Source: Myxococcales bacterium (GTDB taxonomy: Bacteria; Myxococcota; Myxococcia; Myxococcales; Anaeromyxobacteraceae). Taken from it: a stretch of DNA of 64,000 bases. Below the pieces are notes generated by a model. That model searched no databases and had not been told where the DNA came from. It was given only the letters and a program-made list of their open reading frames with translations. A program made the position numbers and the translations under genes. The DNA is taken from positions 124,001-188,000 of the forward strand of contig JAJZQX010000002.1 of NCBI GenBank assembly GCA_021806645.1. Direction: 5' to 3'. Shown here piece after piece: positions 13,656 through 40,147 of this stretch; within the stretch, counting starts at the first letter, position 1, and every line of letters begins with the position of its first letter.

Positions 13656-13660
13656 CCTTC

Positions 13661-13679: not shown

Positions 13680-13707
13680 ATTCAACTCCCATTCGCCGGA
13701 GGCTCAC

Positions 13708-14973: not shown

Positions 14974-14981
14974 CCGGCTTC

Positions 14982-18287: not shown

Positions 18288-18297
18288 CGGCCCCGCC

Positions 18298-20654: not shown

Positions 20655-20665
20655 AGGAGCGGCCC

Positions 20666-20983: not shown

Positions 20984-21885
20984 CCGGGCCGCGGCGCGCC
21001 GGTCCCAGCTACCGCGAGGCGAGCGCTCGCCGCCGGCTGGCCGCCATCCTCGACGAGGGCAGCTTTGGCGAGCTGCTCGGCCCGACCGAGCGGGTGACCA
21101 GTCCCCACCTCGCCGCGCTGGATCTCCCGGTGGCCTTCGACGACGGCGTGGTGGTCGGCACCGGGCTCCTCGGCGGCCAGCCGGTGCTGGGGGCCAGCCA
21201 GGAGGGGCGTTTCCTGGGCGGCGCCGTGGGTGAGGTGCATGGCGCCAAGCTCACCGGGCTGCTCCGGCGGGCGCTCGCCGAGCGGCCGGCCGCGGTGCTG
21301 CTGCTCCTCGACACCGGCGGGGTGCGCCTGCAGGAGGCCAACGCCGGGATCGTCGCCGTCTCGGAGGTGATGCGGGCGGTGCTGGCGGTGCGGGCCGCCG
21401 GCATCCCGGTGCTGGCCCTGGTCGGCGGCGCCTGGGGCTGCTTCGGCGGAATGGGGATCGTGGCCCGGTGCTGCGACGGCGTGCTGATGAGCGAGGAGGC
21501 GCGGATGGGGATCTCCGGGCCGGACGTCATCGAGGCGACCCGGGGCGTGGAGGAGCTCGACGCCTCCGACCGCGCCATGGTCTGGCGCACCTGGGGCGGC
21601 AAGCACCGTGTCCTGCTCGGCGAGGCCGATCGGCTGCTGGAGGACTCGCTTCCCGCCTTCAGGGAGGCGGCCAGGCAGCTGGTGGGGCGCGCGCGGCCGT
21701 TGACGCTGGCCGCGCTGGAGGCGGAGCAGGCCTGGCTGGCGCGCCGCCTCGCCGACCTGGGTGGCAGCGCCGACGCGCTCGATGCGTGGCGGTCCGCGGG
21801 GGTGGACGAGCCGGAGCGGCTCCCGCTCCTCGAGCCACCCGCCTGGAGCGCGGCGGTGGCCGGCGCGCGGAGGGTCCGGCCATGA
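20980..21885 (+). CDS. mdcD: Malonate decarboxylase beta subunit (malonyl-S-ACP decarboxylase)
   Basis: A 301-residue member of the carboxyltransferase (crotonase-like) superfamily that, with MdcE, decarboxylates malonyl-ACP to acetyl-ACP and CO2. Visible family stretches are FDDGVVVGTGLLGGQPVLGA, LLLDTGGVRLQEANAG, GGAWGCFGGMGIVARCCD (oxyanion-hole region) and MGISGPDVIEATRG. The start overlaps mdcC and the stop overlaps mdcE, so the two catalytic subunits are made in step. No MadB, biotin-carrier or other sodium-pump gene is nearby, so this is the biotin-independent type. Confidence 0.95.
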   Translation: MTGPRRAGPSYREASARRRLAAILDEGSFGELLGPTERVTSPHLAALDLPVAFDDGVVVGTGLLGGQPVLGASQEGRFLGGAVGEVHGAKLTGLLRRALAERPAAVLLLLDTGGVRLQEANAGIVAVSEVMRAVLAVRAAGIPVLALVGGAWGCFGGMGIVARCCDGVLMSEEARMGISGPDVIEATRGVEELDASDRAMVWRTWGGKHRVLLGEADRLLEDSLPAFREAARQLVGRARPLTLAALEAEQAWLARRLADLGGSADALDAWRSAGVDEPERLPLLEPPAWSAAVAGARRVRP

Positions 21886-22595
21886 GCGTGGATGAACTGC
21901 TTCGCCAGCTCTTCCCGGGCGGCCACGCTGTCCGTCGCGAGGGTGACCTGCTGGTCGGCACCGGCCGCTCGCCGGCCGGCGAGATCGCGGTGCTCGGTCT
22001 CTGCGACGGCGTCGACGTCGGCGTCGAGCTGGCGCTCCGGCTGGCGACCGAGGTGCTGCGCGTGGTGCGGGACCACCCGGGGCGCCCCATCCTCACGCTG
22101 GTGGACACCCGCGGGCAGCGCATGAGCAAGCGGGACGAGGTCCTCGGGCTCAACGGCTACCTCGGGCACCTGGCCGCCTGTGTAGAGCTGGCGCGGCAGG
22201 CCGGTCACAAGATCGTGGCGCTGGTCCACGGCCAGGCGGCCAGCGGGAGCTTCCTGGCGCTGGGCATGATGGCCGACGAGATCCACGCCGTGGACGGGGC
22301 GTCACTATCGGTGATGAACCTGCCGGCCATGTCGAAGGTGACCAAGATCCCGCTGGAGCGGCTGGAGCGGCTCTCGCGTGGCAGCCCGGTGCTGGCTCCC
22401 GGGCTGGCCAATTACGTGGCCCTCGGCTGTGTCCGGTCGATCTGGAGCGCCCCCCTGGCCGCCGGGCTGGAGGCGGCCCTGGCCCGGCCCGTCGAGCCGG
22501 ACCGTCGAGCCCGGCGGGGGCTGGAGCGCGGTGGACGCACGCTGGCGGAGCCGGTGGCCCGGAGGGTGAGCGTGACAACGACCCATGGTGAATAG
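21882..22595 (+). CDS. mdcE: Malonate decarboxylase gamma subunit
   Basis: A 237-residue carboxyltransferase-fold partner of MdcD. Matching segments include LTLVDTRGQRMSKRDEVLGL, HKIVALVHGQAASGSFLALG and MNLPAMSKVTKIPLERLERL. It is somewhat shorter than family members I recall (about 260 residues), mainly at the C-terminus, where an Arg-rich tail occurs instead. The start overlaps mdcD by 4 bases, and the end overlaps mdcG by 11 bases in another frame. The core needed for the catalytic interface appears intact. Confidence 0.93.
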   Translation: MSVDELLRQLFPGGHAVRREGDLLVGTGRSPAGEIAVLGLCDGVDVGVELALRLATEVLRVVRDHPGRPILTLVDTRGQRMSKRDEVLGLNGYLGHLAACVELARQAGHKIVALVHGQAASGSFLALGMMADEIHAVDGASLSVMNLPAMSKVTKIPLERLERLSRGSPVLAPGLANYVALGCVRSIWSAPLAAGLEAALARPVEPDRRARRGLERGGRTLAEPVARRVSVTTTHGE

Positions 22596-25090: not shown

Positions 25091-26983
25091 TCACCCGGCC
25101 GGCGGCGGCGGACGGGCCACCGCCAGCGCGTCGGCCACCGCGCGCAGCACCTCCGTCTCACCCGCGGTGATGGCGCCGTCGGCGGCGGCGCAGGCCTGGC
25201 AGGCCCGCAGCACCCGGGCGCGCAGCTTGAACGGCGTCGCCTCCAGCGTGGACAGCACCTGGTCGAGCCGGTCGAACCCGAGCTCGGCCGTCGCCGGCAG
25301 CTTCCAGCGTCCGGTCAGCCCCAGCGCGGCCACGCCCGCGTCGAGCGCGGCCTGGGCGGCCGCCTCGTCGGAGGCGCCCACCCGGGCCAGCAGCCCGAGC
25401 AGCTCGCGGCACTCCACCACCACCTGGTCCACGGTGAAGGCGAGCGTGCGGGCCGGGCGTCCGGCGGTGCCGAGCCGGTCGAGGCGCCGGGCGATGACGC
25501 GCAGGTAGACCCACTCGGTGAGCGAGAGCCGGCCGTCGGCCTCGGCGAGGCGGCGCAGGTCGCCCTGCAGCCGCTCGCGCTGCGGCGCCGACAGGGCCCC
25601 GAGCGCCGGAAGGGCCAGGTCGAGCAGCGCCAGCCGGTGGGTCCGCTCCACCGCCGCCAGCGGCCCGGCCAGCCGGACCACCTCGCTCCCCTCCGGCCCC
25701 GGGCCGAGCAGCGCCAGCTGCCGGGCGCGCACCTCGGCGCGGGCGTCGAGCAGCACGGCGCAGAGGAGGGCGCGGGCGCCGAAGGGCTCGCGGGCGGCGG
25801 CGGCCAGCTCGGGCGGCAGGGCGTCGATCAGGGTCGCGGCCGCTGCGAGACGAGGCGGAGCGGCCGGCGGTGGCGGCGACAGGGCGGCGGCGCCGGCCAG
25901 CGAGGCCAGCAGCGGTGGCGGCGCGGCGGCGGTGGGCGCCGGGGTGGTGGCGGCCCGGGCCTGGGTCCGGACCAGCGCGGGCAGCGGCGCCGTCTCGCCG
26001 AGCGCCAGCAGCCGCCGGATGCGCGACTCGGGCGGCGGGTGGTCGTCGAGCCAGCTCGACGGTCGGCCGCCGGCGAAGAGCAGGTGGCTCGCCTCCGGGG
26101 CCATGGGGCTCGAGACCACCGAGCCGACCGAGGCGATCTTGGCGAGCGCGCCGGCCAGCGCCGCCGGGTTGCGCGTGAACTGGGCGGAGGCGGCGTCGGC
26201 CAGGTACTCGCGCTGCCGGGCCACCGCGGCCCGGATGAGGTCGGCGAAGAAGGCGCCGATGATCCCCACGACCAGCAACGCCAGCCCGAAGAGGGCCAGC
26301 TGCCATCCACCGCCCTTGTCGCGTTTCCGGTCGTTGGAGGAGCCGGCCTGCAGCAGCACCCGGCCGACCAGCGCCAGCGCCGAGAGGCCGCCGGCCAGGG
26401 CCAGCAGGCGCAGGTTGAGCCGCATGTCGCCGTTCTGCACGTGCGACAGCTCGTGGCCGATCACCCCCTGCAGCTCGTCGCGGGTGAGCTGGGTGAGGCA
26501 GCCCCCGGTCACCGCCACCACCGCCCGGTCGGGCGCGAAGCCGGCCGCGAAGGCGTTGATGCCGGTCTCGCCGCGCAGCACGTAGAGCGTCGGCACCGGC
26601 AGGCCGGAGGCGATGGCCATCTCCTCCACCACGTTGCGCAGCCGCTGGTCCTCCTCGGTGACCGGCTGGAGCGGGATCGGCTCGCCGCCCAGCGAGCGGG
26701 CCAGCCCTTCGCCGCCGCCGCTGGCGAGCGACCAGAGGTGGTAGAGCGTGCCGATCCCGACCACGATGCCGGTGAAGGCCAGCGATCCGGCGAAGAGGTC
26801 CGGCGACCAGACGGGGAGCCCGACGGGCCCGTCGCCCGACAGGTCGATCGCCAGCCAGAGGAGCAGATGGACGAGCACCGCCACGCCGGGGATGGCCAGC
26901 AGGTAGTAGAGGAGCAGCAGCGCGGTGCGCCGGCGGGCGCTGCGCTGCGCCTCGAAGAAGTCGAAGGTGGCCCGGGCGGCCAT
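25091..26983 (-). CDS. M48 family membrane metalloprotease with C-terminal TerB-like region
   Basis: A 630-residue membrane protein. TM segments lie near residues 20-45 and 62-83, with further hydrophobic stretches at about 190-212 and 228-250. The M48 zinc site is HELSH (His177, Glu178, His181) with the third ligand in REYLADAASA (Glu259), as in HtpX. After a Pro/Ala-rich linker (~330-390), the C-terminal half is alpha-helical, with EADGRLSLTEW and AADGAITAGETEVLRAV, which resemble TerB-type acidic repeats. LemA is encoded 18 bases upstream on the same strand, a widespread pairing. A role in membrane protein quality control is inferred. Confidence 0.88.
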   Translation of the reverse strand: MAARATFDFFEAQRSARRRTALLLLYYLLAIPGVAVLVHLLLWLAIDLSGDGPVGLPVWSPDLFAGSLAFTGIVVGIGTLYHLWSLASGGGEGLARSLGGEPIPLQPVTEEDQRLRNVVEEMAIASGLPVPTLYVLRGETGINAFAAGFAPDRAVVAVTGGCLTQLTRDELQGVIGHELSHVQNGDMRLNLRLLALAGGLSALALVGRVLLQAGSSNDRKRDKGGGWQLALFGLALLVVGIIGAFFADLIRAAVARQREYLADAASAQFTRNPAALAGALAKIASVGSVVSSPMAPEASHLLFAGGRPSSWLDDHPPPESRIRRLLALGETAPLPALVRTQARAATTPAPTAAAPPPLLASLAGAAALSPPPPAAPPRLAAAATLIDALPPELAAAAREPFGARALLCAVLLDARAEVRARQLALLGPGPEGSEVVRLAGPLAAVERTHRLALLDLALPALGALSAPQRERLQGDLRRLAEADGRLSLTEWVYLRVIARRLDRLGTAGRPARTLAFTVDQVVVECRELLGLLARVGASDEAAAQAALDAGVAALGLTGRWKLPATAELGFDRLDQVLSTLEATPFKLRARVLRACQACAAADGAITAGETEVLRAVADALAVARPPPPAG

Positions 26984-27001
26984 GGGCGCCGGCGCGGACT
27001 G

Positions 27002-27583
27002 CTAGAACGCGACCTTGACCGCTTCGCGCTCGGCGCCGTCGGTGATCTCGAACGGCGCGGCGGCCGCGAAGGAGCCGGCCAGCAGCATGCCGGGGAAGGT
27101 CTCGCGGGCGGTGTTGTAGGCCATGACGGCGTCGTTGAAGGCCTGGCGCGAGAAGGCGATCCGGTTCTCGGTGGAGGAGAGCTCCTCCATGAGCCGGGTC
27201 ATGGTCTGGTCGGCCTTGAGCGCCGGGTAGCTCTCCGCCACCGCCAGCAGGCGGGAGAGCGAGGCGCCCAGCGCCCCCTCGGCCCCGGCCAGCCCCTTCA
27301 TGGCGGCCGGATTCCCCGGCGCGGCGGCTGCGGCAGCGGTGGCGGTGACGGCCAGGTTGCGGGCGCGCACCACCGCCTCCAGCGTCTCCCGCTCGTGCTT
27401 CAGGTAGCCCTTGGCCGTCTCCACCAGGTTGGGGATGAGGTCGTGGCGCCGCTTGAGCTGGACGTCGATCTGGCTGAAGGCGTTCTTGCTGGCGTTCCGC
27501 AGCCGGACCAGGCCGTTGTAGAGGCCGACCACGAAGACGACCACGGCGGCGAGCAGGGCCACGACGACGAGAAAGCCGATCAC
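27002..27583 (-). CDS. lemA: LemA family protein
   Basis: A 193-residue protein with one N-terminal TM helix (about residues 3-22) followed by a helical bundle. The LemA signature NAFSQIDVQLKRRHDLIPNLVETAKGY is complete (split here: NAFSQIDVQLKRR, HDLIPNLVETAKGY). The molecular role of LemA is unsettled; the gene is commonly next to an M48 protease, as here. GTG 27583 is preceded by a strong AGGAGG, so this pair uses a leadered mRNA. It is probably the first gene of a two-gene operon with the protease. Confidence 0.93.
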   Translation of the reverse strand: MIGFLVVVALLAAVVVFVVGLYNGLVRLRNASKNAFSQIDVQLKRRHDLIPNLVETAKGYLKHERETLEAVVRARNLAVTATAAAAAAPGNPAAMKGLAGAEGALGASLSRLLAVAESYPALKADQTMTRLMEELSSTENRIAFSRQAFNDAVMAYNTARETFPGMLLAGSFAAAAPFEITDGAEREAVKVAF

Positions 27584-27712
27584 GTTGGACCTCCTGGTGC
27601 GGGGCGCCTCCGGCGCCCGAACCGGGCGAGGATGGCACGATTCAGCGGTAGCCGGTCAGCTTGCGGCGCGGCGCGAGGAGGAGCTTCCGGTGGCGGGCGG
27701 CGGCGGCCGGCG

Positions 27713-28399
27713 TCACGGAAGGCCGAGGGCGGCGGGCAACTCGGCCAGGGTGGTGAGCTCGACGTCGGGCGGCTCGCCGAGCCGCTCGCGCGGCAGGCCG
27801 GAGCGGTTGCACCAGGCCACGCGCAGGCCGGCGGCCTTGGCGCCCCAGGCGTCCCAGCCGTTGGCGGAGACGAAGCCCATCTCCACCGGCCAGACGCCCA
27901 GCCGGTCCACCGCCAGCTTGTAGACCGAGGGGTGGGGCTTGTAGATGCCGACCGTCTCGACCGAGAGGGTCTCGGCGAGGAGGTCGTCGAGCCCGGCGCT
28001 ACGGACCGCCGCGGCCAGCATGCGCGGCGAGCCGTTGGAGAGGATGGCGATCTTGATCCCGGCGGCCTTGAGCCGCTTGAGGGCGTCGCGGGCGTCGGCG
28101 CAGGGGCCGATCCGCTCGTAGGCCTCCATGAGCCGCCGGCGCAGGTCCGGGGTGGCGATCCGCAGCGAGTCGAGCGCGTAGTCGAGCGAGTCGCCGGTCA
28201 CCTGCCAGAAGTCGGCGTGGCGCCCCATGAGCGAGCGCAGCCAGGTGTACTGGAGCTGCTTCTGGCGCCAGAGCTCGGTCAGCGGCCCGGCCCGATCGCC
28301 CAGCAGGTCGCGGCTCCGCTCCGCGGCGCTGGCGAAGTCGAGCAGCGTGCCGTAGGCGTCGAAGACGACGGCGCGAACGCCAGCCAGCGGTGCCGCCAT
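27713..28399 (-). CDS. (S)-2-haloacid dehalogenase, HAD type II
   Basis: A 228-residue HAD hydrolase. The residues known from L-2-haloacid dehalogenase appear in order: nucleophile Asp in VFDAYGTLLD, Arg in ELWRQKQLQYTW, Ser in ILSNGSPRML, Lys and Tyr in YKPHPSVYKLA, and Ser/Asn/Asp in VSANGWDAWGAKAAGL. It should hydrolyse short 2-halocarboxylates to 2-hydroxy acids with inversion. The full residue set makes this firmer than a generic HAD call, though the physiological substrate is unproven. ATG 28399 has GGGAGGCG upstream and a TAGACT 30 bases away. Confidence 0.88.
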   Translation of the reverse strand: MAAPLAGVRAVVFDAYGTLLDFASAAERSRDLLGDRAGPLTELWRQKQLQYTWLRSLMGRHADFWQVTGDSLDYALDSLRIATPDLRRRLMEAYERIGPCADARDALKRLKAAGIKIAILSNGSPRMLAAAVRSAGLDDLLAETLSVETVGIYKPHPSVYKLAVDRLGVWPVEMGFVSANGWDAWGAKAAGLRVAWCNRSGLPRERLGEPPDVELTTLAELPAALGLP

Positions 28400-28429
28400 G
28401 ATTCGCCTCCCGTGCGACGATGGGGCCGC

Positions 28430-28435
28430 AGTCTA
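28430..28435 (-). promoter_or_regulatory. -10 hexamer TAGACT for haloacid dehalogenase gene
   Basis: TAGACT on the minus strand ends 30 bases before the ATG. This leader contains a GGGAGG Shine-Dalgarno, so the mRNA is leadered. The rest of the 28436-28784 gap holds the orphan plus-strand unit described separately. Confidence 0.4.
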
Positions 28436-28567
28436 CCGCGTTCGAGCGCGGCCAGGAGCGCCACGGCAAGCGGGAGCCGGAGCGGAACGCCTCGCTCGAT
28501 GCAGGCCGGATCCTCCAGTGATCGCGGCCGGTTCCCCGCCCCGGCGAATCGGGTGGCCTCGTGGATC

Positions 28568-28596
28568 TTTTCATCCGCGGACGAAGGGCGTACCGT
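28568..28596 (+). promoter_or_regulatory. Promoter TTTTCA-17-TACCGT of an orphan plus-strand unit
   Basis: TTTTCA (28568-28573) and TACCGT (28591-28596) have 17-base spacing. Transcription would start near 28603. No plus-strand gene lies downstream before the 12-bp hairpin at 28722, so the transcript would be about 150 bases. Confidence 0.4.
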
Positions 28597-28627
28597 TTTT
28601 CGTAGTCGAAGGAACCAACCAGGAGGC

Positions 28628-28723
28628 GTGAGATACCGGAACCGACGCGATCGTCCACATCTGCGTGATCTCCAACGGCGAGAGCCGGCCCCGCGTCCGA
28701 CCATGGACGCTCAGCGTAGTTGA
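28628..28723 (+). CDS. Candidate 31-residue basic peptide or small RNA region
   Basis: A GTG-started frame of 31 residues, rich in Arg and Pro (RYRNRRDRPHLRDL, EPAPRP), ends with TGA exactly at the base of a 12-bp hairpin. A perfect AGGAGG (28621-28626) lies just upstream, but only one base separates it from the GTG, which is too close. The better-spaced codon is an ATA opening an 11-codon frame. A non-coding RNA is therefore as likely as a peptide. No homology is recognised. Flanking genes run on the opposite strand. Confidence 0.25.
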   Translation: MRYRNRRDRPHLRDLQRREPAPRPTMDAQRS

Positions 28724-28751
28724 GAAGAGGCCCCGACCAGGGCCTCTTCTC
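28722..28751. terminator. 12-bp perfect hairpin, likely terminator
   Basis: GAGAAGAGGCCC (28722-28733) pairs perfectly with GGGCCTCTTCTC (28740-28751) around the loop CGACCA. It can end the orphan plus-strand transcript and, from the other side, the fadH mRNA, whose stop is 34 bases away. No long T-run follows on either strand. Confidence 0.65.
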
Positions 28752-28784
28752 ATGTCGGGGCGGCCTGGCCACCCGGGTGGACCG

Positions 28785-30956
<2,172 letters not shown>

Positions 30957-31092
30957 TCATGATCGGGCCCCCTGCTCCACGATGTCGAGGAACGATGCGG
31001 TGTCGTGGCGGCCCACTTCAAGTCGTGGCCGACCTGGACGGGCGCCCGGAAGTTCGCCTGCCCCCGCCCGACTTGTGGTCTGCTCCCCGACC

Positions 31093-32190
31093 GTGCGGAA
31101 CCAGGAGATCAGGACGCAGCGCGAGCGCCACGGCCGCCAGGCGGTGGCGGTGCTGCCCATCCACTATCCGAAGGAGCTCCTCACCGCGCTCGACCTGCTG
31201 GCGGTGGAGCTCTGGGGCCCGCCCGGCCCGCCGCGCGGCGACGACGCCGGCCGGGTCCAGAGCTACGTCTGCAGCGTGGTCCGCAACGCGCTCGCCTTCC
31301 TGGCCGGCGGCCACGCCGATTCGGTGGACGGCGTCCTCTTCCCGCACACCTGCGACTCGATCCAGCAGCTGGCCACGCTGGCCACCGATCTCGGCGGCTG
31401 GACCAAGCCGGCCTTCACCTTCCTCCACCCTCGCGGCGCCGACCGGCCCAGCGCCCGCCGCTTCGTCGAGGCCGAGCTGCGCCGGCTGGCGGGCACGCTG
31501 GAGGCCTTCTCCGGCCACGCCCTCACCGAGGAGCGGCTGGCGGCGGCGCTCGCCCTGCACCGCGAGGTGGACGCGGCCCGCGGCGCCCTGCTCGACGCCC
31601 GGGCGCGGCTGCCGCTCGACGACACCCAGCTCTACGCGCTGCTCCGGCGGGGCGAGTGGCGCTGGCCGGCCGACCACCTCGTCGAGCTGGAGGCCGCGCT
31701 GGCCACGCTGGCTCCGGAGCCGGTGCAGCGCGGCGTCCCGGTGCTGGTGACCGGGTACGTGCCCGAGCCGGCGGCGCTGCTCGCCACGCTCAACGGCGCC
31801 GGCGGCTACGTCGCGGCCGACGACTACGCGGCGGTGGGGCGGCGGGTGGTGCGCGCGACGCCCACGCCGGCGGCCGACCCGTGGCGCGCGCTGGTGGATC
31901 GGTACTTCGCCGCGCCCCCCTGCCCGACGCGCGGCGCCGACACCGGCGTCCGCATGGCGCACCTGGCCGCGCTGGCGGAGCGGAGCGGCGCGCGGGGCGT
32001 GCTGGTCCACGTCCTCAAGTTCTGCGAGCCGGAGCTGTTCGACGTGCCGGCAGTCAAGCAGGCCTTCGCCTCCCGCGGCCTGCCGGTGCTGGTGCTCGAG
32101 GGCGAGCTGGAAGGCGCGCTCTCCGGCCAGGCGGTGACGCGGCTGGAGGCCTTCGGCGAGCTGCTCCAGGGCGCGCCAGGGGCCGCGTGA
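31093..32190 (+). CDS. 2-hydroxyacyl-CoA dehydratase / benzoyl-CoA reductase-type subunit A
   Basis: A 365-residue subunit of the HgdAB/BcrBC superfamily of radical 2-hydroxyacyl-CoA dehydratases. It starts in the family core (VAVLPIHYPKELLTALDLL). Likely 4Fe-4S ligands are the cysteines in SYVCSVVRN, FPHTCDSIQQ and LKFCEPELFD. The partner subunit and the ATP-driven activator follow with overlapping ends, so the three make one functional unit. The substrate cannot be read from sequence; candidates are 2-hydroxyacyl-CoAs from amino acid or acid catabolism. GTG 31093 is the chosen start, but no strong Shine-Dalgarno supports it. Confidence 0.85.
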   Translation: MRNQEIRTQRERHGRQAVAVLPIHYPKELLTALDLLAVELWGPPGPPRGDDAGRVQSYVCSVVRNALAFLAGGHADSVDGVLFPHTCDSIQQLATLATDLGGWTKPAFTFLHPRGADRPSARRFVEAELRRLAGTLEAFSGHALTEERLAAALALHREVDAARGALLDARARLPLDDTQLYALLRRGEWRWPADHLVELEAALATLAPEPVQRGVPVLVTGYVPEPAALLATLNGAGGYVAADDYAAVGRRVVRATPTPAADPWRALVDRYFAAPPCPTRGADTGVRMAHLAALAERSGARGVLVHVLKFCEPELFDVPAVKQAFASRGLPVLVLEGELEGALSGQAVTRLEAFGELLQGAPGAA

Positions 32191-33503
32191 TGCTGCGACG
32201 CGCGCGGTACGAGCTGGCCGGCCGGGCCGCCTTCCCCATCCTCACCGCGCTGGAGGCCTGGCAGCATCGGCTCAAGCGCTCGCGCAAGCAGCCGGGTGGC
32301 GGGCCGTTCGGCCCCCCGCTGGAGTCGGTGCGCCGCTTGAAGGAGCTGATGGCCCACCACTACTTCCAGGGGCGCTACGCCGACGGCGCGGTGCCGGTGG
32401 CCTGGGTGACCAGCGGCTTCCCGGTGGAGGTGCTGCGGGCGCTCGGCTTCCACACCGTCTACCCGGAGAACCACGCCGCGCTCTGCGGCGTGCAGCGGCT
32501 CACGCCGGAGTACTCCGACGTGGCAGAGGCGGCCGGGTACTCGCGCGACCTCTGCAGCTACGTGAGGACCGACCTCGGCAGCGTGCTCTCCTCGAAGACC
32601 CCGGTGGGGCGGCTGCCGCGGCCGCAGTTGCTGGCCTGCTGCACCAACATCTGCCAGACGGTCCTCTACTGGTACCGGGAGCTCTCCCGCCACCTCGGCG
32701 TGCCGCTGGTGCTCGTGGACACGCCCTTCGTCCACGGCACCGCCTCGGCCCACCAGCTCGCCTACGTGAAGGAGCAGCTGGAGGAGCTCTGCCTGGTGGC
32801 CGGGCGGGTGAGCGGGAAGCCGCTCGACGCCGAGCGGCTGGTTGAGGTGACCCGTACGGCGCGGGAAGGCTCGCGCCTCTGGGGCGAGTGCCTGGCCGCC
32901 AGCCGGGCCAGGCCGGCCCCGTGGACCGGCATCGACGGCTTCTTCCACATCGCCCCCATCGTCGCGCTGCGCGGGACCGAGGCCTGCAACGGCTACTACC
33001 GGCTGCTGCGGGACGAGCTGGAGGACCGGGTGGCGCGCGGCGTCGGCGGCCTGAAGGAGGAGAAGCACCGGCTGCTCTGGGACAACCTGCCGGTCTGGTT
33101 CGCGGTGCGCCGCTTCTCCACGCTGCTGGCCGAGCGCGGCTTCAACTTCGTCTCCACCAGCTACACCGACGCCTGGGCCGAGGCCGGCGTGGGGATCGAT
33201 CCGGACGATCCCATCGGCTCCGCGGCCCGGACCTACACCCACGTCATCCTCAACCAGGACCTCCCCAACCGGCTCGACATCCTGCGGCGGTTGTCGCGCG
33301 ACTACGCGGTGGACGGCGCCATCCTCCACAGCGACCGCTCCTGCAAGCCCTACTCGATCGGGCAGGTGGACCTGCGCGAGCGGCTGGCCGCCGAGCTCGG
33401 CATCCGCGTGCTGCTGCTGGAGGCCGACCACAACGACCCCCGCTCGTGGGCGGCCGAGCCGGGCGAGAACCGGCTGGCGGCCTTCATGGAGGGGTTCGAG
33501 TGA
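32190..33503 (+). CDS. 2-hydroxyacyl-CoA dehydratase-type subunit B
   Basis: A 437-residue second subunit of the same superfamily. Conserved parts are PVAWVTSGFPVEVLRALGFH, AGYSRDLCSYVRTDLGS, LLACCTNICQTVLYWY and LHSDRSCKPYSIGQ, giving three or more cysteines suited to an iron-sulfur cluster. The N-terminal ~60 residues form a basic helical extension. ATG 32190 shares a base with the preceding stop (TGATG). A GTG at 32187 is equally placed. The stop overlaps the activator gene (GTG at 33500). It probably forms a heterodimer with the 365-residue subunit. Confidence 0.88.
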   Translation: MLRRARYELAGRAAFPILTALEAWQHRLKRSRKQPGGGPFGPPLESVRRLKELMAHHYFQGRYADGAVPVAWVTSGFPVEVLRALGFHTVYPENHAALCGVQRLTPEYSDVAEAAGYSRDLCSYVRTDLGSVLSSKTPVGRLPRPQLLACCTNICQTVLYWYRELSRHLGVPLVLVDTPFVHGTASAHQLAYVKEQLEELCLVAGRVSGKPLDAERLVEVTRTAREGSRLWGECLAASRARPAPWTGIDGFFHIAPIVALRGTEACNGYYRLLRDELEDRVARGVGGLKEEKHRLLWDNLPVWFAVRRFSTLLAERGFNFVSTSYTDAWAEAGVGIDPDDPIGSAARTYTHVILNQDLPNRLDILRRLSRDYAVDGAILHSDRSCKPYSIGQVDLRERLAAELGIRVLLLEADHNDPRSWAAEPGENRLAAFMEGFE

Positions 33504-34291
33504 AGGCGCCAGCCAGGGGCGCCGTGACCGGCGTGGCCATCGGCGTGGACGTGGGGAGCACCAGCTGCAAGGCGGTGCTGGTGGACGGCGCCGGCCGGAT
33601 CGTGGGGCGGCGGCTCGAGCCGGCCCACCCCCGCGTCGAGGAGCAGACCGGGCGGCTGGTGGCGGCGCTCGTCGCCGAGGCCGGCGTGGAGGTCCCGGTC
33701 GGCGCCACCGGGTACGGCCGCAAGCGGGTGGCGGCGGCGCGGGTCCTCACCGAGATCACCTGCCACGCCCGCGGCGCCCACGCGCTCCACGGCGGCGGTG
33801 GCCTGCTGGTGGACATGGGCGGCCAGGACACCAAGGTGATCGCCATCGGCCCGGCCGGCGACGTCACCGACTTCGCCATGAACGACAAGTGCGCCGCCGG
33901 GACCGGCCGCTTCCTCGAGGTGATCCTGGCGCGGCTCCAGGTGCCGCTGGACGAGGTGGCGGGCTACGCTGCGCGGGCCGGGGCGCCGGTGACCGTCTCC
34001 AGCACCTGCACCGTCTTCGCCGAGAGCGAGGTGATCTCGCTGGTGGCCGAAGGCCGGCCGGCGGAGGGGATCGTGCGCGGCCTGCACCTCGCGCTCGCGT
34101 CAAGGGTCGCGGCGCTGGCGCGCGGCAGGCCCGGGACCGGGCCGGTGCTGCTGAGCGGCGGCGTGGCGCTCAACGCGGCCATGGTGACCGCGCTGGCCGA
34201 GGCGCTGGGGCGGCCGGTCCGGGTGCTGCCGGAGCCGCAGCTGGTCGGGGCGCTGGGCGCGGCGCTCTCGGTGCTGGAGCGCATCCCGTAG
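33500..34291 (+). CDS. Acyl-CoA dehydratase activator ATPase (HgdC/BadF family)
   Basis: A 263-residue ASKHA-fold ATPase that injects one electron into the dehydratase at the cost of ATP. Signatures are GVDVGSTSCKAVLVD, VDMGGQDTKVIAI, NDKCAAGTGRFLEVI and VSSTCTVFAESEVISL. The last two carry the cysteines which, in the homodimer, hold the bridging 4Fe-4S cluster. VLLSGGVALNAAMV completes the nucleotide site. GTG 33500 overlaps the preceding stop. A single activator serving a two-subunit dehydratase is the HgdABC arrangement. Confidence 0.93.
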   Translation: MKAPARGAVTGVAIGVDVGSTSCKAVLVDGAGRIVGRRLEPAHPRVEEQTGRLVAALVAEAGVEVPVGATGYGRKRVAAARVLTEITCHARGAHALHGGGGLLVDMGGQDTKVIAIGPAGDVTDFAMNDKCAAGTGRFLEVILARLQVPLDEVAGYAARAGAPVTVSSTCTVFAESEVISLVAEGRPAEGIVRGLHLALASRVAALARGRPGTGPVLLSGGVALNAAMVTALAEALGRPVRVLPEPQLVGALGAALSVLERIP

Positions 34292-34330
34292 CCCCCCCTC
34301 CGCGCCTGCTGATTGCAGAATCAATCCAGC

Positions 34331-34359
34331 TTGCCGCGTCGCGTCTAAGCGGCTAGCGT
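34331..34359 (+). promoter_or_regulatory. Promoter TTGCCG-17-TAGCGT for acyl-CoA dehydrogenase
   Basis: TTGCCG (34331-34336) and TAGCGT (34354-34359) are 17 bases apart. Initiation near 34366 gives a ~22-base leader containing CCGGAGG before GTG 34388. Confidence 0.5.
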
Positions 34360-34387
34360 CTCGCCTTCACCTTCGCCGGAGGCCACC

Positions 34388-36145
34388 GTGATCGACAAGA
34401 AGGCCGACAGCTTCGTCCAGTCGCTCTGCATGGGGCGCATCGAGGAGGAGATCCTCTTCCCGTACCCGACCATGAAGGCCAGCGAGCGCGAGACGGTCGC
34501 GCAGGTGACCGCCAGCATCGACCAGGTGCTCGGCGGGCACGCCAAGGACTTCCGCGCCTGGGACGTGAAGGGCGAGCAGCCGCCCGAGTTCATCGAGGAG
34601 CTCAGGTCCTTCGGCCTCTTCGGCCTGATCGTCCCCGAGGCGCACGGCGGGCTCGGCTTCGGCTCGGCCGCCTACTCGCGGGTGCTGCAGCAGGTGGCCA
34701 TGCACGACGGCTCGGTGGCGCTCACCATCGGCGCCCACAGCTCCATCGGCATGCGCGGCCTGCTCCTCTTCGGCACCGAAGCGCAGCGGGCCAGGTGGTT
34801 GCCGAGGCTGGCCACCGGCGAGCTGATCGCCGCCTTCTGCCTCACCGAGCCGGGCGCCGGCTCGGACGCCGCCTCGATCCGGACCAACGCCAGGCGGGAA
34901 GCGGACCACTGGATCCTCAACGGCGAGAAGCTCTGGATCACCAACGGCGGCATCGCCGGTTTCTACACCGTCTTCGCCAAGACCCCGTCCGGCAACGGCG
35001 ACGGCAAGGCCCACATGACGGCCTTCATCGTCCCGCGCGACCTGCCCGGCATCTCGACCGGCCCGCACGAGGACAAGATGGGGATCCGGGCCTCCAACAC
35101 CACCACCGTCCACTTCGAGGACGTCAAGCTGACCGACGAGCACGTGCTCGGCGAGGTGGGGCAGGGCTTCAAGGCGGCCATGAAGATCCTCAACGCCGGC
35201 CGTTCCGGCCTGGGCGGCGGCTGCGTGGGCGGGATGCGCAAGCTCATCTCGCTGGCCACCCGGCAGGCCAAGGAGCGGCGCCAGTTCGGCCGCCCCATCG
35301 CCGAGTTCGGGCTGGTGAAGCAGAAGCTGGGCGAGATGGTGGTGGACGCCTACGCCACCGAGAGCGTGGTGGGCGTGGTGGCCGGCCTCTCCGACCAGGG
35401 CTACGAGGACTACGCCGTCGAGGCGGCCATCTCCAAGGTCTTCGCCAGCGAGGCGCTCTGGAGGAGCGCCGACGAGGCGCTGCAGGTGGCCGGCGGCAAC
35501 GGCTACATGCGCGAGTTCCCCTACGAGCGGGTCCTGCGCGACGTGCGCATCAACCGGATCTTCGAGGGGACCAACGAGATCCTGCGGCTCTTCATCGCCC
35601 TCACCGCCCTGAACCGCGTCGGCACGCAGCTGAAGGAGCTGGCCGACGGGCTGAAGGGGGCCATGAACGATCCCATCAAGGGGTTCGGCGTCCTCTCCGA
35701 CTACGCCATGAAGCACGCCTCGATCCGGACCGGCCTGGTGGGCGAGAAGCGGAGCTTCAGCAAGCTCCACCCGGCGCTGGCCGAGGTCGGCGACCACTAC
35801 GAGGGGCTGGTTCGCGAGGTGGCCTGGGTGGCCGACCGCGAGCTGCGCCGCCACGGCAAGGAGATCGTCGGCAAGCAGCTCGTCTCCAAGCGGATCGCCG
35901 ACGTGCTCATCGACCTCTTCGTCACCGCCTGCGTCTTCTCCCGCGTCACGGCGGCGCTGGAGAAGGAGGGCGAGAAGGGGGCGGTGCACGAACTCGAGAT
36001 CGCGCGCGTCTTCTCGCGCGCGGCGCGCAGCCGGATCCGCGGCAACCTGCACCGCGTGGACTCCAACGACGACGAGCTGGTCACCGCCCTGGCCGACGAC
36101 GCGCTGGAGCGCGAGGCGTACGGCTGGGACCTGCTGACCGCGTAG
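34388..36145 (+). CDS. Acyl-CoA dehydrogenase, VLCAD/ACAD9-like
   Basis: A 585-residue FAD enzyme for alpha,beta-dehydrogenation of acyl-CoA. It contains LTEPGAGSDAASIRTNA and WITNGGIAGFYTVF (FAD/substrate loops), RRQFGRPIAEF, QVAGGNGYMREFPYERVLRD, and RIFEGTNEILRLF, whose Glu is the probable catalytic base. It is ~200 residues longer than short-chain dehydrogenases; the extra C-terminal helical domain (about 400-585) is like VLCAD/ACAD9, so long-chain substrates are plausible. GTG 34388 is supported by CCGGAGG and a good promoter. Together with fadH and the 3-hydroxyacyl-CoA dehydrogenase it suggests fatty-acid oxidation. Confidence 0.93.
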   Translation: MIDKKADSFVQSLCMGRIEEEILFPYPTMKASERETVAQVTASIDQVLGGHAKDFRAWDVKGEQPPEFIEELRSFGLFGLIVPEAHGGLGFGSAAYSRVLQQVAMHDGSVALTIGAHSSIGMRGLLLFGTEAQRARWLPRLATGELIAAFCLTEPGAGSDAASIRTNARREADHWILNGEKLWITNGGIAGFYTVFAKTPSGNGDGKAHMTAFIVPRDLPGISTGPHEDKMGIRASNTTTVHFEDVKLTDEHVLGEVGQGFKAAMKILNAGRSGLGGGCVGGMRKLISLATRQAKERRQFGRPIAEFGLVKQKLGEMVVDAYATESVVGVVAGLSDQGYEDYAVEAAISKVFASEALWRSADEALQVAGGNGYMREFPYERVLRDVRINRIFEGTNEILRLFIALTALNRVGTQLKELADGLKGAMNDPIKGFGVLSDYAMKHASIRTGLVGEKRSFSKLHPALAEVGDHYEGLVREVAWVADRELRRHGKEIVGKQLVSKRIADVLIDLFVTACVFSRVTAALEKEGEKGAVHELEIARVFSRAARSRIRGNLHRVDSNDDELVTALADDALEREAYGWDLLTA

Positions 36146-36179
36146 CGCGGGCCGGCCCGAAGCGGGAGCCCTGGCGGCG

Positions 36180-36314
36180 GTGAACGCGGCGCTGGAGCGG
36201 GTCACGTCAAGTGACTGGGCAGCCCCGGCACCACGGCTCACCGGTCGGGACGGCGGGCGTCAGGGAGGCGACGCCCCGGCCGTGGCCGGCTACGTCGCCG
36301 GGCTGAAGAAGTAG
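36180..36314 (+). CDS. Possible 44-residue ORF or gene remnant
   Basis: A GTG-started open frame fills most of the 192-base gap between the acyl-CoA dehydrogenase and the convergent dehydrogenase. It reads NAALERVTSSDW at the start and APAVAGYVAGLKK at the stop. The ending looks like the last helix of a longer protein, so a decayed 3' end is possible. There is no good Shine-Dalgarno and no recognised family. Confidence 0.2.
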   Translation: MNAALERVTSSDWAAPAPRLTGRDGGRQGGDAPAVAGYVAGLKK

Positions 36315-36337
36315 CAGGCCGGCTACGGGCCTCTTCC

Positions 36338-37270
36338 TCACCGGCGCTTCAGCTTCTCCAGCCGGACCAGGAAGCGGTCCCGCGCGCGGCTCCTCTCCGC
36401 CAGCGTGCTGGCGGCGTGGTCGAAGAGGCCGCGTCCCGTCTTCGCGCCCAGCTCCCCGCGGGCGACGCGCTCGCGTATGGCCGCCGGCGCACGCTCGGCG
36501 CGCGAGAGCTCCGGCGCGAGGTTGTCCAGCACCCGCTGCCAGGTGTCGAGCCCTCCCAGGTCAGCCGCCTCGACGGGGCCGACGAAGGACCAGCGGAAGC
36601 CGGGCCCCTCGGTCATCACCGTGTCGATGTCCTCCAGGCTGGCCACGCCCTGCTCGACGAGGTGGAAGGCCTCGCGCACCACGGCCGCCTGGAGCCGGTT
36701 GGCGACGAAGCCCGGCACCTCCTTGCGCAGCCGCACCGGACGCTTGCCGATCCGCCGCAGCGCCTCCAGCACCCGCTCCACCGCCGCCGGCGGCATGCGC
36801 GGGTGCGGCACCACCTCGACGAGCGGGACCAGCTGCGCCGGGTTGAAGAAGTGGACGATGACCATCCGCTCCGGCCGCCGGGCCCGCTGGGCCAGGAGGC
36901 TGATCGGGATCGTCGAGGTGTTGGAGCCGACGATGGCGTCCTCGCCCACCACCTGCTCGATCCGGTCGAACAGCTCCAGCTTCGACGCCAGCAGCTCGGG
37001 GATGGCCTCGACCACGAAGCCGGCGCCGGCCAGCGCCTCGTCCAGGCTGGTGGTGGGCCGCACCCGGGCCCGGGCCGCGGCCGCCGCCTGGGGCGTGAGC
37101 ACCGCCTCCTCGACCAGCAGCGCCAGGGACTCCTCCATGGCGGACAGGCCGCTCGCCAGCTGCCGCTCGGCGGCGTCGTGCAGCCTCACCGCCGAACCAG
37201 CCTGGGCGAAGAGCTGCGCGATCCCGTGACCCATCACGCCAGCGCCGATCACCGCCACCGCGTTCTCCAT
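36338..37270 (-). CDS. 3-hydroxyacyl-CoA dehydrogenase
   Basis: A 310-residue NAD-dependent enzyme oxidising (S)-3-hydroxyacyl-CoA. The N-terminal Rossmann loop is VIGAGVMGHGIAQLFAQAG. SNTSTIPISLLA and the catalytic-His segment MVIVHFFNPAQLVPLVEVV follow, then a C-terminal helical domain with PGFVANRL and LGAKTGRGLF. It is the stand-alone HbdA/PaaH type, without an enoyl-CoA hydratase domain. A lambda-crystallin-like relative is possible. It converges on the acyl-CoA dehydrogenase and is divergent from the kinase gene. Confidence 0.92.
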   Translation of the reverse strand: MENAVAVIGAGVMGHGIAQLFAQAGSAVRLHDAAERQLASGLSAMEESLALLVEEAVLTPQAAAAARARVRPTTSLDEALAGAGFVVEAIPELLASKLELFDRIEQVVGEDAIVGSNTSTIPISLLAQRARRPERMVIVHFFNPAQLVPLVEVVPHPRMPPAAVERVLEALRRIGKRPVRLRKEVPGFVANRLQAAVVREAFHLVEQGVASLEDIDTVMTEGPGFRWSFVGPVEAADLGGLDTWQRVLDNLAPELSRAERAPAAIRERVARGELGAKTGRGLFDHAASTLAERSRARDRFLVRLEKLKRR

Positions 37271-37376
37271 GGCCGGCCCCTTTCCAGCTGGAGCCTACCG
37301 CAGCGTCGGCCGCTTCGAGACGGTCGCCTCGCCGGTTCTGCTTGCGCCCACGCCCCGGGCGGCGGAACCTCTCGGC

Positions 37377-38528
37377 ATGGCCGTGCGCAAGGTTGGGACG
37401 AGCCGCATCGTCCGCGAGATCGGCCGCGGTGGGATGGCCGTGGTCTACGAGGCCTTCCAGGAGGCGCTCGACCGGCGGGTCGCCGTCAAGGTGCTCGACG
37501 CCGGGCAGGCCCGATCCAAGGAGGCCACCGAGCGGTTCCTCCGCGAGGGGCGCGCCTATGCCCACCTCCACCACGCCTCGGTGCTGGCGGTCTACGACCT
37601 GATCGAGAAGGACGACGCCCTCTACCTCGTCACCGAGTTCGTGGACGGGGCCGACCTCCACCAGGTGGTCCAGGCCGGCGGCGCGCTCCCGCCCGACGGC
37701 GTGGCGGCGGTGGGCGCCCAGGTGGCCGACGCCCTGGAGTTCATCCACGCCCGTGCCCTGTTCCACCGCGACGTGAAGCCGGCCAACGTCATGATCTCGC
37801 GGGAGGGCGACGTCAAGGTGATGGACTTCGGCATCGCCCGCGACCCGCTGGCGGCCCAGCTCACCTCGACCGGCGTGGTGGTGGGCACCCCCGCCTACGT
37901 CGCGCCGGAGGTGCTCTGCGGCGACGAGGCCGACGAGCGGAGCGAGGTCTGGTCGCTCGGCATCTCGCTCTACGAGCTCGCCACCGGCGTGCTGCCGTTC
38001 CAGGCCAAGGACTTCAACGCCCTCTTCGCCCAGGTGCGCAAGGCGCGCCCCAGGCGCGTGCGTGACCTCTCGCCCAGGGTCCCGCGCCGGCTGGCCAAGG
38101 CCATCGAGCGCTGCATCGAGAAGAACCCGGAGGCGCGCTGGCAGACCGCCGGCGCGCTGGCCCGGGAGCTGAGGGCCTGCGCCTCCGCCCTGCTCGGCGA
38201 CGTCCTGCCGCACGAGCGGCTCGCGGCGCTCCTCGTCGAGCGCGGGCTGGGGGGGAAGGAGCCGGTCGGTCCCACCGAGACTGTCGACCTGGTCGAGACG
38301 ACCGGCAGCGCGGCGCCATCCACCGGGGCGACGCGCGAGCCGGTGCCCGCCACCAGTGAGGTGGTGGCCGCGGGCATCCCCGAGCGCCGGCGGGGGCGCT
38401 GGATCCTGGTCCTGCTGCTGCTGGCGGCCGCCGGCGTGGCGGCCTGGAACTTCGGGCGCTGGAGCGAGCTGCTGCTGGCGCCTCTCGAGCAGGTTCGGCG
38501 CGCCGGCCAGGGGCCGGCGGCGAGGTGA
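37377..38528 (+). CDS. Membrane-anchored Ser/Thr protein kinase
   Basis: A 383-residue Hanks-type kinase. It has the glycine loop EIGRGGMAVVYEA, lysine in VAVKVLDAGQ, catalytic loop FHRDVKPANVMI, DFG in VMDFGIARD, and the activation segment GTPAYVAPEVL. The kinase domain covers about residues 8-265. One TM helix near 335-355 (GRWILVLLLLAAAGVAAW) is followed by a short extracytoplasmic tail without a sensor domain. ATG 37377 is chosen because the kinase domain starts immediately; an upstream ATG at 37269 would overlap the divergent gene. The target is unknown. Confidence 0.9.
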   Translation: MAVRKVGTSRIVREIGRGGMAVVYEAFQEALDRRVAVKVLDAGQARSKEATERFLREGRAYAHLHHASVLAVYDLIEKDDALYLVTEFVDGADLHQVVQAGGALPPDGVAAVGAQVADALEFIHARALFHRDVKPANVMISREGDVKVMDFGIARDPLAAQLTSTGVVVGTPAYVAPEVLCGDEADERSEVWSLGISLYELATGVLPFQAKDFNALFAQVRKARPRRVRDLSPRVPRRLAKAIERCIEKNPEARWQTAGALARELRACASALLGDVLPHERLAALLVERGLGGKEPVGPTETVDLVETTGSAAPSTGATREPVPATSEVVAAGIPERRRGRWILVLLLLAAAGVAAWNFGRWSELLLAPLEQVRRAGQGPAAR

Positions 38529-38536
38529 ACGCCGCC

Positions 38537-38566
38537 GACCGTTCACCTCGGTCGATGTGAACGGTC
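38537..38566. terminator. 10-bp perfect hairpin after the kinase gene
   Basis: GACCGTTCAC (38537-38546) pairs with GTGAACGGTC (38557-38566) around a 10-base loop, starting 9 bases after the kinase stop. A terminator is likely. No T-tract is present. Confidence 0.55.
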
Positions 38567-38691
38567 TGGCCCGTCATGCTGATTGAGTTCGGCCGGCCGT
38601 CCTGCCTGGGTGCTCGCCAACCCGCCGGACTTCCTGGGGTGCGATCGGTGGCCCATGCCATGCAAGGTGGGTGAGGCCAGGGGGCCACCGA

Positions 38692-38826
38692 ATGTCGAAC
38701 CTGGAAATCGTCGCAGCCAGCTCAGGAGTAAGCGCCGCCGTGCTCGGAAGACTGCAAGAGAGGTTCCGCCGGGCCGACCCGCGCCTGGGCTCGGTTCGTC
38801 ACCGCGACGGAGGGCTCACCCGATGA
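38692..38826 (+). CDS. Candidate 44-residue small protein coupled to the next gene
   Basis: ATG 38692 opens a 44-residue frame (starts MSNLEIVAASSGVSAAVLG, then a basic helix RLQERFRRADPRL). Its TGA overlaps the ATG of the downstream membrane protein as ATGA. This is the coupling used by proven pairs in this window and is the main evidence that it is real. A purine-rich AGGGGG lies about 10 bases upstream. No family is recognised. Confidence 0.35.
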   Translation: MSNLEIVAASSGVSAAVLGRLQERFRRADPRLGSVRHRDGGLTR

Positions 38827-39179
38827 AGGACCTGAGCCCGCTCGCCTTTCCGCCGCTGCACGGCGTGGCCGGCCACCGGCTGCCCACCGCCAGGAACCGC
38901 TCCCTGGTCGGCACCAGCCTCGGCGCGCTGGTCCTCCTCGCGGTGGCCCTCTCCTCCCAGCTGCTCTTCGGTGGGGTCACCGGGGCGCAGCTGGCCGACG
39001 GGGTGCTGTGGATCGCCGACGCTCCCAGCTTCGGCGCCACCGCCTTCGTGCTCCTCTGCGTCGTGTTCGCCGTCTCCCCGGTCGCCTCCTTCTTCGCGGT
39101 CGGCGGCGCGGACGAGGGCGCCTCCATCGGCGCCCAGGTCGAGCCGGTGAAGCTCGCCCCCAGGACGCCGCTGCGCTGA
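38823..39179 (+). CDS. Small membrane protein of unknown function
   Basis: A 118-residue protein with two hydrophobic segments, about residues 24-45 (LVGTSLGALVLLAVALSSQL) and 66-90 (TAFVLLCVVFAVSPVASFF), and a short acidic-to-polar C-terminus. A GGAGGG Shine-Dalgarno lies 8 bases before ATG 38823. The start overlaps the stop of a candidate 44-residue frame. No recognisable domain; membrane location is the only safe statement. Confidence 0.55.
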   Translation: MKDLSPLAFPPLHGVAGHRLPTARNRSLVGTSLGALVLLAVALSSQLLFGGVTGAQLADGVLWIADAPSFGATAFVLLCVVFAVSPVASFFAVGGADEGASIGAQVEPVKLAPRTPLR

Positions 39180-39316
39180 CCTACAACCCCACCAGCTTGG
39201 CCATGGAGGTCTCCTCTCACGACCCGTGAAGCGCCCAGTCGCTTGCAGGCCCGGCCGCCATGGAGTCTGCTGCGCCCAGGGCTCGGCGCCATGCCCGGAG
39301 GGCCGCGGAGGCGACC

Positions 39317-40147
39317 ATGAACGCGATCGAGTGGCGGTGGAAGAGCGACGACGGGCTCGGCATGCAGGCGCTCGAGTGGGTGCCGGCGGGCGCCAGGCGC
39401 GCCTTGGTGGTGCTGGTCCACGGCTTCGACGATCACGGCGCCCGCTACGCGCACGTCGGCGAGGCGCTCTCCGCCGCCGGCTTCGTCCTCTGCAGCTACG
39501 ACGCCCGCGGCCACGGCCGGTCGGGCGGCAAGCGGGCCTGGGTGGCCCGCTACGAGCAGCTGCTCGACGACCTCGCCACCTTCCTCGACCTGGCCGCGGC
39601 CCGCCACCCGGGGCTGCCGCGCTTCCTCTACGGGCACTCGATGGGCGGCAACGAGGTGCTCAACTTCCTGCTGCGCCGCAGGCCGAAGCTGGCCGGCGCC
39701 GTCGTGACCAGCCCCTGGCTGGAGCTGGCGGTCACGCCGCCGGGCTGGAAGCGGGCGGTGGCTCGCCTGGCGGCGGCGCTGGTCGGCGGGCTGGCGCTCC
39801 CGACCGGGATGGAGAGCGCCGCCATCTCGCGCGACCCGGAGGTGGTGAAGGCCTACGAGGCCGACCCGTACGTGCGCGGGCGGATCACGCCGCGGCTGCT
39901 CGTCAACGTGCTCGACGCCGGCCAGTGGGCGCTGGCCCACGCCGGCGAGCTCCCGGTGCCGCTGCTCCTCCTGCACGGCGACGCCGACCGGATCACCTCG
40001 GCCGGCGCCAGCCGCCGTTTCGCGACGGCGGCGGGTCCGCTGGCCACCTTCCAGAGCTGGCACGGCGGCTTCCACGAGCTGCACAACGAGCCGGAGAAGG
40101 CCGAGGTCCTGAAGGCGATCACCGACTGGCTAGGCGGGAAGCTCTAG
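39317..40147 (+). CDS. Alpha/beta hydrolase, monoacylglycerol lipase-like
   Basis: A 276-residue serine hydrolase. VLVHGFDDHGARY and SYDARGHGRSGG form the oxyanion and strand regions. The nucleophile elbow is YGHSMGG (Ser about 114). The acid is in LLHGDADRIT and the histidine in GGFHELHNEPEK. The HG-GD-H arrangement resembles bacterial monoacylglycerol lipases and lysophospholipases. No signal peptide is visible, so it is probably cytosolic. ATG 39317 has GGAGG 6 bases upstream. Its stop interlocks with that of the convergent sigma-factor gene (CTAG). Confidence 0.88.
   Translation: MNAIEWRWKSDDGLGMQALEWVPAGARRALVVLVHGFDDHGARYAHVGEALSAAGFVLCSYDARGHGRSGGKRAWVARYEQLLDDLATFLDLAAARHPGLPRFLYGHSMGGNEVLNFLLRRRPKLAGAVVTSPWLELAVTPPGWKRAVARLAAALVGGLALPTGMESAAISRDPEVVKAYEADPYVRGRITPRLLVNVLDAGQWALAHAGELPVPLLLLHGDADRITSAGASRRFATAAGPLATFQSWHGGFHELHNEPEKAEVLKAITDWLGGKL

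Follow-up and report, generated by a model that had tools for sequence, protein, structure and literature searches.

A three-gene cassette resembling HAD-type 2-hydroxyacyl-CoA dehydratases in an Anaeromyxobacteraceae genome, with no tie seen to the adjoining acyl-CoA genes

A putative ATP-primed dehydratase cassette

In a 64,000-nucleotide stretch of the genome of a Myxococcales bacterium of the family Anaeromyxobacteraceae (assembly GCA_021806645.1, contig JAJZQX010000002.1, positions 124,001 to 188,000; hereafter the window), three genes encode two HGD-D family proteins, termed here subunits A and B, and an HgdC-type activator ATPase (Table 1). This cassette most probably adds an uncharacterised member to a known enzyme family, with no tie seen to the acyl-CoA genes that adjoin it. 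A self-contained HAD-type (R)-2-hydroxyacyl-CoA dehydratase is favoured, with a probability of about two in three, because the residues, the ranking of the fold matches, the order of the NCBIfam scores for B, the cysteine set of A and the single activator agree. To judge from its relatives, the enzyme would very probably be an oxygen-sensitive, ATP-primed radical enzyme that removes water from 2-hydroxyacyl-CoAs, and the Pfam and NCBIfam matches, the cluster cysteines and the predicted folds bear out the initial annotation of the genes as an HgdABC/HadBC-like, ATP-primed dehydratase.

The same annotation had described two dehydratase subunits and an activator overlapping end to end, and its coordinates are right. 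Subunit A begins at a GTG codon (31093). Compared by eye, this start agrees with the N-terminus conserved among 19 orthologues, MR.xYI.RQR..HGRKAVAV, and the residues of A are numbered here from it. The stop codon of A, ending at 32190, shares one base with the ATG of B (TGATG), and the GTG start of the activator at 33500 overlaps the stop codon of B (33503) by four bases (GTGA), with an internal GTG at 33524 as a possible alternative start. In Pfam, A and B match HGD-D only, and the top match of the activator is BcrAD_BadFG. No sign of selenocysteine recoding was seen in A when the internal TGA reported in five of its matches was re-read: in the two alignments long enough to include it, the TGA is simply the regular stop codon close to the A terminus, and the other three contain none.

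Table 1. Features of the cassette and its surroundings in the window. Cut-offs are 28.4 bits for Pfam HGD-D, 31.5 bits for Pfam BcrAD_BadFG and 125.4 bits for NCBIfam TIGR00241.
Feature	Positions	Strand	Length (residues)	Evidence
Subunit A, HadC/HgdB-like HGD-D protein	31093-32190	+	365	Pfam HGD-D 185 bits
Subunit B, HadB/HgdA-like catalytic HGD-D protein	32190-33503	+	437	Pfam HGD-D 218 bits; phmmer to HadB 5e-62
Activator, HgdC-type ASKHA ATPase	33500-34291	+	263	BcrAD_BadFG 183 bits; TIGR00241 221.9 bits
Slot segment without counterpart in same-genus genome G035	30874-34299	+		blastn, window 26001-40000 against L117
Haloacid dehalogenase type II	27713-28399	-		TIGR01428 208.9 bits (cut-off 125.4)
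FadH/OYE family protein	28785-30818	-
Acyl-CoA dehydrogenase	34388-36145	+
3-Hydroxyacyl-CoA dehydrogenase	36338-37270	-

The three-gene cassette is real and not a chance arrangement, as the order A-B-activator is kept in orthologues of 53-77% identity from other genera. A single genome scan gave 53 named loci: a near set (L032-L056, 53-77% identity), mostly from Myxococcota and with the isolate Anaeromyxobacter oryzae Red232 among its hosts, and a more distant set (37-45% identity) from Desulfobacterales, Syntrophaceae, Spirochaetes and other hosts. Subunit A is upstream of B in 24 of the 25 near loci, the contig of the remaining one starting inside B, and the activator is directly downstream in 21; in three of the four loci without an activator the contig ends within 48 bases, and the fourth (L054) shows none in 797 bases. 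Nine further loci of the phylum all carry A and B, eight of them with the activator. No second ATPase was found at any of these sites, the window cassette and the 21 and eight loci just named having a single activator and the rest none. Of 195 genomes sampled from the phylum, 20 carry subunit A (13 of 149 among those of good quality).

Cluster and catalytic residues

The cluster cysteines had been raised in the initial annotation as a point to be checked, and all three are present in each dehydratase subunit and both in the activator. The alignments used here, of A (A1, the window and 35 of the 53 loci) and of B (A2, the window and 34 of the 53), omit rows that were truncated or that, as cut, contained in-frame stops (L056, L061 and L071 for B), and some others. 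In subunit B, C122, C155 and C385 correspond to the cluster cysteines C84, C117 and C346 of HadB and are predicted to form a [4Fe-4S] site together with the catalytic-type residues S75 and E93. S75, E93 and Y124 are the equivalents of HadB S37, E55 and Y86. C122, Y124, C155 and C385 are conserved in every one of the 27 rows of the cassette clade, and S75 and E93 in all 26 rows with data. In subunit A, C60, C87 and C311, with the conserved C277, make up a predicted [4Fe-4S] or [4Fe-5S] site; all four are unchanged in each of the 35 aligned rows, and HadC has cysteine at every one of them. The activator has C131 and C170 in the contexts NDKCAAGTGRF and SSTCTVFAESEV, which match the HadI alignment, and the two would be expected to hold a [4Fe-4S] cluster bridging the dimer.

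The class I benzoyl-CoA reductases (BcrCBAD, BzdNOPQ and MbdONPQ) share with the cassette the fold family, the cluster cysteines of the catalytic subunit and the equivalents of E93 and Y124, and an OYE/FadH-type reductase adjoins the cassette in this genome. It is nevertheless unlikely that the enzyme is reductase-like in this manner, consuming ATP-driven electrons in the reduction of an aryl-, dienoyl- or enoyl-CoA instead of recycling them. In the available text of PMC11971306, His131, Gln274 and Trp46 of BzdO are the sites that separate reductase from dehydratase chemistry, and at these B reads V158, L300 and F77. The P-E-N (E93-N94) and R-S-C-K motifs of B are found in HadB and in Fusobacterium HgdA, whereas BcrB and MbdO read otherwise and have a K-S-C that B lacks; as far as alignment can tell, B is HadB-like at every tested position that separates dehydratases from benzoyl-CoA reductases. 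Subunit A keeps four of the BzdN cysteine positions, while the N-terminal cysteine and the second cysteine of the CxxC are absent, leaving the six-cysteine [8Fe-9S] set incomplete; the double-cubane ligands of BzdN were assigned by reading the alignment, as the available text of the same paper (PMC11971306) gives the number of cysteines only. The cassette also has one ATPase as opposed to two, FadH is unlinked to it in other carriers, and the genome already has a full BcrCBAD set alongside Had and Oah genes. Identity as a benzoyl-CoA reductase proper is rejected on the residues, the cut-offs and the number of ATPases.

Family scores, predicted structures and phylogeny

The NCBIfam scores for B fall in the order HadB (245 bits), BcrB (157 bits) and BzdO (114 bits), and the AlphaFold models (mean pLDDT of 89.0 for B and 91.0 for A) resemble HadBC most closely. 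The best PDB match of the B model is HadB (3o3m_A; TMt 0.93, rmsd 1.9), followed by MbdO and BzdO, and that of the A model is HadC (3o3n_B; TM 0.92/0.90), with BzdN a close second. Like HadBC/HadI (PDB 3o3m, 3o3n, 4eht), the cassette consists of two HGD-D subunits and one ATPase and has all the cluster cysteines and the S37/E55/Y86 equivalents; it differs in sequence, with fold-alignment identities of about 31% (B) and 21% (A), and in a helical extension at the N-terminus of the B model (residues 1 to about 45). It also differs in that no linked CoA-transferase or 2-hydroxyacid dehydrogenase was found, which upholds an earlier statement for the adjacent genes run through Pfam or NCBIfam.

The Hgd system of Fusobacterium (L085, called Hgd from its GctAB and decarboxylase neighbours in open reading frames read by eye) likewise clusters an activator gene with HgdA-like and HgdB-like genes and has W-x-S, PEN and R-S-C-K-P in its catalytic subunit, whereas its gene order is different, B is only about 27% identical and its HgdB lacks the three cluster cysteines that the window A keeps. 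The double-cubane cluster protein DCCP (6eno, 7yyl) shares the superfamily fold and a partner ATPase, but the cassette proteins reach 74.6 and 49.7 bits with its model (NF040772, cut-off 350 bits), and DCCP is homodimeric according to the available text of PMC11971306.

Several results weigh against a HAD-type dehydratase. The HadBC equivalogs NF052455 and NF052456 have cut-offs of 750 and 700 bits, and the cassette stays below them at 245 and 81 bits; A scores slightly higher against BzdN (85.5 bits) than against HadC (80.9 bits); and near the active site B reads W-D-N-L-P, as opposed to E-G-I-P in HadB and HgdA (M-E-G-I-P in HadB). Among solved chains, the activator is closest to MbdQ, a reductase subunit (phmmer 4e-55), ahead of HadI (8e-46) and HgdC (3e-45). 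In the best B tree the cassette is not grouped with HadB/HgdA, a forced grouping with Had/Hgd being not rejected (p-AU 0.353), and its weak sister (SH-aLRT 93) is a paralogue set, named L007 after its member in this same genome, which has two ATPases. The BzdN score, the MbdQ match and this sister would also suit the reductase discussed above. The benzoyl-CoA reductase equivalogs TIGR02260/02263 and TIGR03190/03191 likewise stay below cut-off, at 157, 81, 85.5 and 114 bits, and no NCBIfam equivalog of a defined dehydratase or benzoyl-CoA reductase passes its cut-off for the cassette proteins.

In the B tree (75 rows), the cassette forms one 27-row branch with an SH-aLRT of 99, or 97 in a reduced tree made without 13 long, partial or duplicate rows, and in the A tree a branch with a support of 100 parts it from HadC, Hgd, BcrC, MbdN, BzdN and all distant relatives. 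Whether the subunits fall within a group of known substrate had been posed as a question of phylogeny; by these trees the cassette branch lies outside HadBC, Hgd (assigned by synteny), BzdNO, MbdNO and BcrBC, an answer whose reach is these reference groups.

Genomic neighbourhood

The FadH, acyl-CoA dehydrogenase, 3-hydroxyacyl-CoA dehydrogenase and upstream haloacid dehalogenase genes reported around the cassette all exist at the locus. The acyl-CoA oxidation setting that they were taken to form reflects a single insertion site and not a functional context, because the same slot differs in another genome of the genus and eight other carriers of the family hold the cassette elsewhere. In the same-genus genome (G035, locus L117), LemA, the dehalogenase, FadH and the acyl-CoA dehydrogenase are all in place without the cassette, the flanking proteins being 91% identical, and DNA homology to the window stops at 30873 and resumes at 34300 (blastn). 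The slot between FadH and the acyl-CoA dehydrogenase there holds a 307-residue methyltransferase of the CMAS family on the minus strand. All eight other family carriers (G015, G026-G032) have the acyl-CoA dehydrogenase apart from the cassette, on a different contig or, in A. oryzae with its complete genome, at a distance of 2.1 Mb; a FadH gene turned up in four of the eight, likewise away from the cassette. Most of these carriers are draft genomes, in which a separate contig alone is weak evidence, and the point is carried by the cassette flanks and by the complete genome. A comparison of the sequences on either side of the slot gave no exact repeat of 8 to 20 bases of the sort that might mark the edges of a mobile element. 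A functional tie to FadH, to either dehydrogenase or to the haloacid dehalogenase is unsupported by the slot in G035 and by the other carriers; flanking genes can mislead, and the beta-oxidation reading had rested on the insertion site of one genome.

The dehalogenase had further been proposed as a metabolic link. It is of type II, passes its cut-off and lies close by in this genome, and it could in principle make 2-hydroxy acids that the cassette dehydrates for the flanking acyl-CoA and 3-hydroxyacyl-CoA dehydrogenases. This route is hardly credible, since the same dehalogenase stands in the same place in G035, together with FadH and the acyl-CoA dehydrogenase but without the cassette, and the eight other family carriers lack the linkage.

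Across the 25 near loci and the window, a cluster shared by three or more sequences is formed by the cassette genes alone, and no other neighbour reaches three of the 25 loci; simple gene callers were used, which called B in 24, A in 20 and the activator in 20 of the 26 sequences, so that neighbour counts are lower bounds. HgdC-like ATPases also serve as corrinoid activators and methanogenesis marker proteins, and with no conserved metabolic neighbour in Myxococcota the cassette might be pictured as a source of low-potential electrons for the reductive activation of some other metalloenzyme or cofactor, with no small-molecule substrate of its own. This is very improbable, as the substrate-binding cluster site with S75, E93 and Y124 is fully kept and some distant relatives lie within acyl-CoA ligase/beta-oxidation gene sets.

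Among 27 distant loci, the order FadJ-thiolase-A-B occurs in four (L060, L067, L069, L078), an acyl-CoA ligase in six and a crotonase in four; these are again lower bounds, as eight of the 28 loci in that survey have no called B. Gene sets with an acyl-CoA ligase, FadJ, thiolase and crotonase are what a CoA-thioester pathway would call for. Some distant relatives adjoin them, and this linkage supports, by analogy and at about 40% identity, a substrate of the CoA-thioester type for the cassette and a product that beta-oxidation can take up. Many of the distant hosts are labelled Desulfobacterales or Syntrophaceae, which was counted toward a dehydratase: strict anaerobes can seldom afford stoichiometric ATP per electron, and a dehydratase uses ATP for priming only.

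B of the window is 75-77% identical to B of genus g6, 71% to that of g2 and 68-73% to that of g5, roughly tracking the acyl-CoA dehydrogenase (70-72%, 62-63% and 67-68%, respectively), and horizontal transfer inside the family is not supported.

Proposed mechanism and substrate

The genes and their order, the cluster and catalytic residues, the predicted folds and the conservation of the trio are direct observations; cluster occupancy, the reaction and any acyl substrate are inferred, the mechanism by homology with HadBC/HadI and HgdABC. In a HAD-type dehydratase of this build, the activator dimer would hold one [4Fe-4S] cluster, reduced by a low-potential ferredoxin, and ATP hydrolysis would drive the injection of one electron into the A-B dimer. 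Subunit A, with its [4Fe-5S]-type site, may relay or store this electron, while the [4Fe-4S] cluster of B would bind the substrate at an open coordination site near S75 and E93. A ketyl radical formed on B would then expel the 2-hydroxyl group to give a 2-enoyl-CoA, the electron being recycled, and the product would most likely enter a general beta-oxidation encoded elsewhere. The 2-hydroxyacyl-CoA itself would be supplied by unlinked CoA-transferases or ligases; such an unlinked supply is possible because CoA_transf_3 genes (two) and 2-hydroxyacid dehydrogenase genes (at least three strong 2-Hacid_dh_C matches) are present elsewhere in the genome. The trio would carry everything needed except ferredoxin, and with a culturable host in A. 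oryzae Red232 it offers a convenient entry to the uncharacterised part of the family.

Most of the 2-hydroxyacyl-CoA dehydratases characterised so far are from organisms that ferment amino acids. It can be suggested, tentatively, that the cassette represents a new substrate class, a further lineage of ATP-primed radical dehydratases marked by W-D-N-L-P and the B extension, which occurs as a free-standing trio in Anaeromyxobacter and other Myxococcota, as opposed to amino-acid fermenters, and, in a distant form, in acyl-CoA ligase/beta-oxidation sets of sulfate reducers. No open-licence paper was found that combines 2-hydroxyacyl-CoA dehydratase with Myxococc, or 2-hydroxyglutaryl-CoA dehydratase with Anaeromyxobacter.

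Related systems in the same genome and minor observations

Myxobacteria make ether lipids, and this, together with the N-terminal helical extension of B, could point to a dehydrating or reductive enzyme acting on a non-CoA substrate, for example with the chemistry of the plasmalogen synthase PlsA/PlsR. We consider this improbable, as the cassette is built like HadBC/HadI and the genome already has three giant DUF2229 activases on contigs C1, C3 and C8 (L088-L090; open frames of about 1500-1800 codons), which presumably have the build of PlsA-like plasmalogen synthases. In the available text of PMC12838417, PlsA-PlsR is described within the 2-hydroxyacyl-CoA dehydratase family and, as in the cassette, combines activation and reduction/dehydration modules in one system, but the PlsA-like proteins are large fused activase-reductase chains with two Act and two Red domains. 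A plasmalogen synthase is disfavoured for the cassette, which is not fused, the DUF2229 matches being those three other genes.

The complete BcrCBAD referred to above lies on contig C33 of this genome (G000) at about 80020-84724 (L008 4020-8723), with each subunit over its TIGR cut-off and two ATPases, and is accompanied by the benzoyl-CoA pathway genes for Had and Oah. The same contig carries, in L007 (C33 58000-76000) at 10736-13024 on the minus strand, a 762-residue fusion of a ketopantoate reductase (ApbA/ApbA_C) with an HGD-D domain that scores as HadB-like and reads S, G and A at the three cluster cysteines of HadB. Next to it, with genes at 8651-9928, 7869-8654 and 9937-10710, are one HadB-like HGD-D protein and a pair of activase ATPases, amid 3-hydroxyacyl-CoA dehydrogenase/crotonase, thiolase, acyl-CoA ligase and molybdenum hydroxylase genes, and B-like copies of this type also occur in other Myxococcota genomes (among L021-L031). 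This pair is perhaps more unusual than the window cassette.

Elsewhere in the window, positions 12049-22595 contain a PRK07787-subfamily acyl-CoA synthetase that passes its cut-off, together with the genes of a biotin-independent malonate decarboxylase (MdcA at 942 bits, the beta subunit over cut-off), beside what appear, by eye, to be branched-chain-type ABC transporter genes. Within the near set, A and B of L056 (JAOSJX010000002.1, 8909-11310) are broken by frame shifts, reflecting either a decaying copy or an assembly error. The cassette contigs of L032, L053 and L084 are labelled Thermoplasmata archaeon and Holophagaceae; they nest in the Myxococcota branch at 68-72% GC and are probably misbinned.

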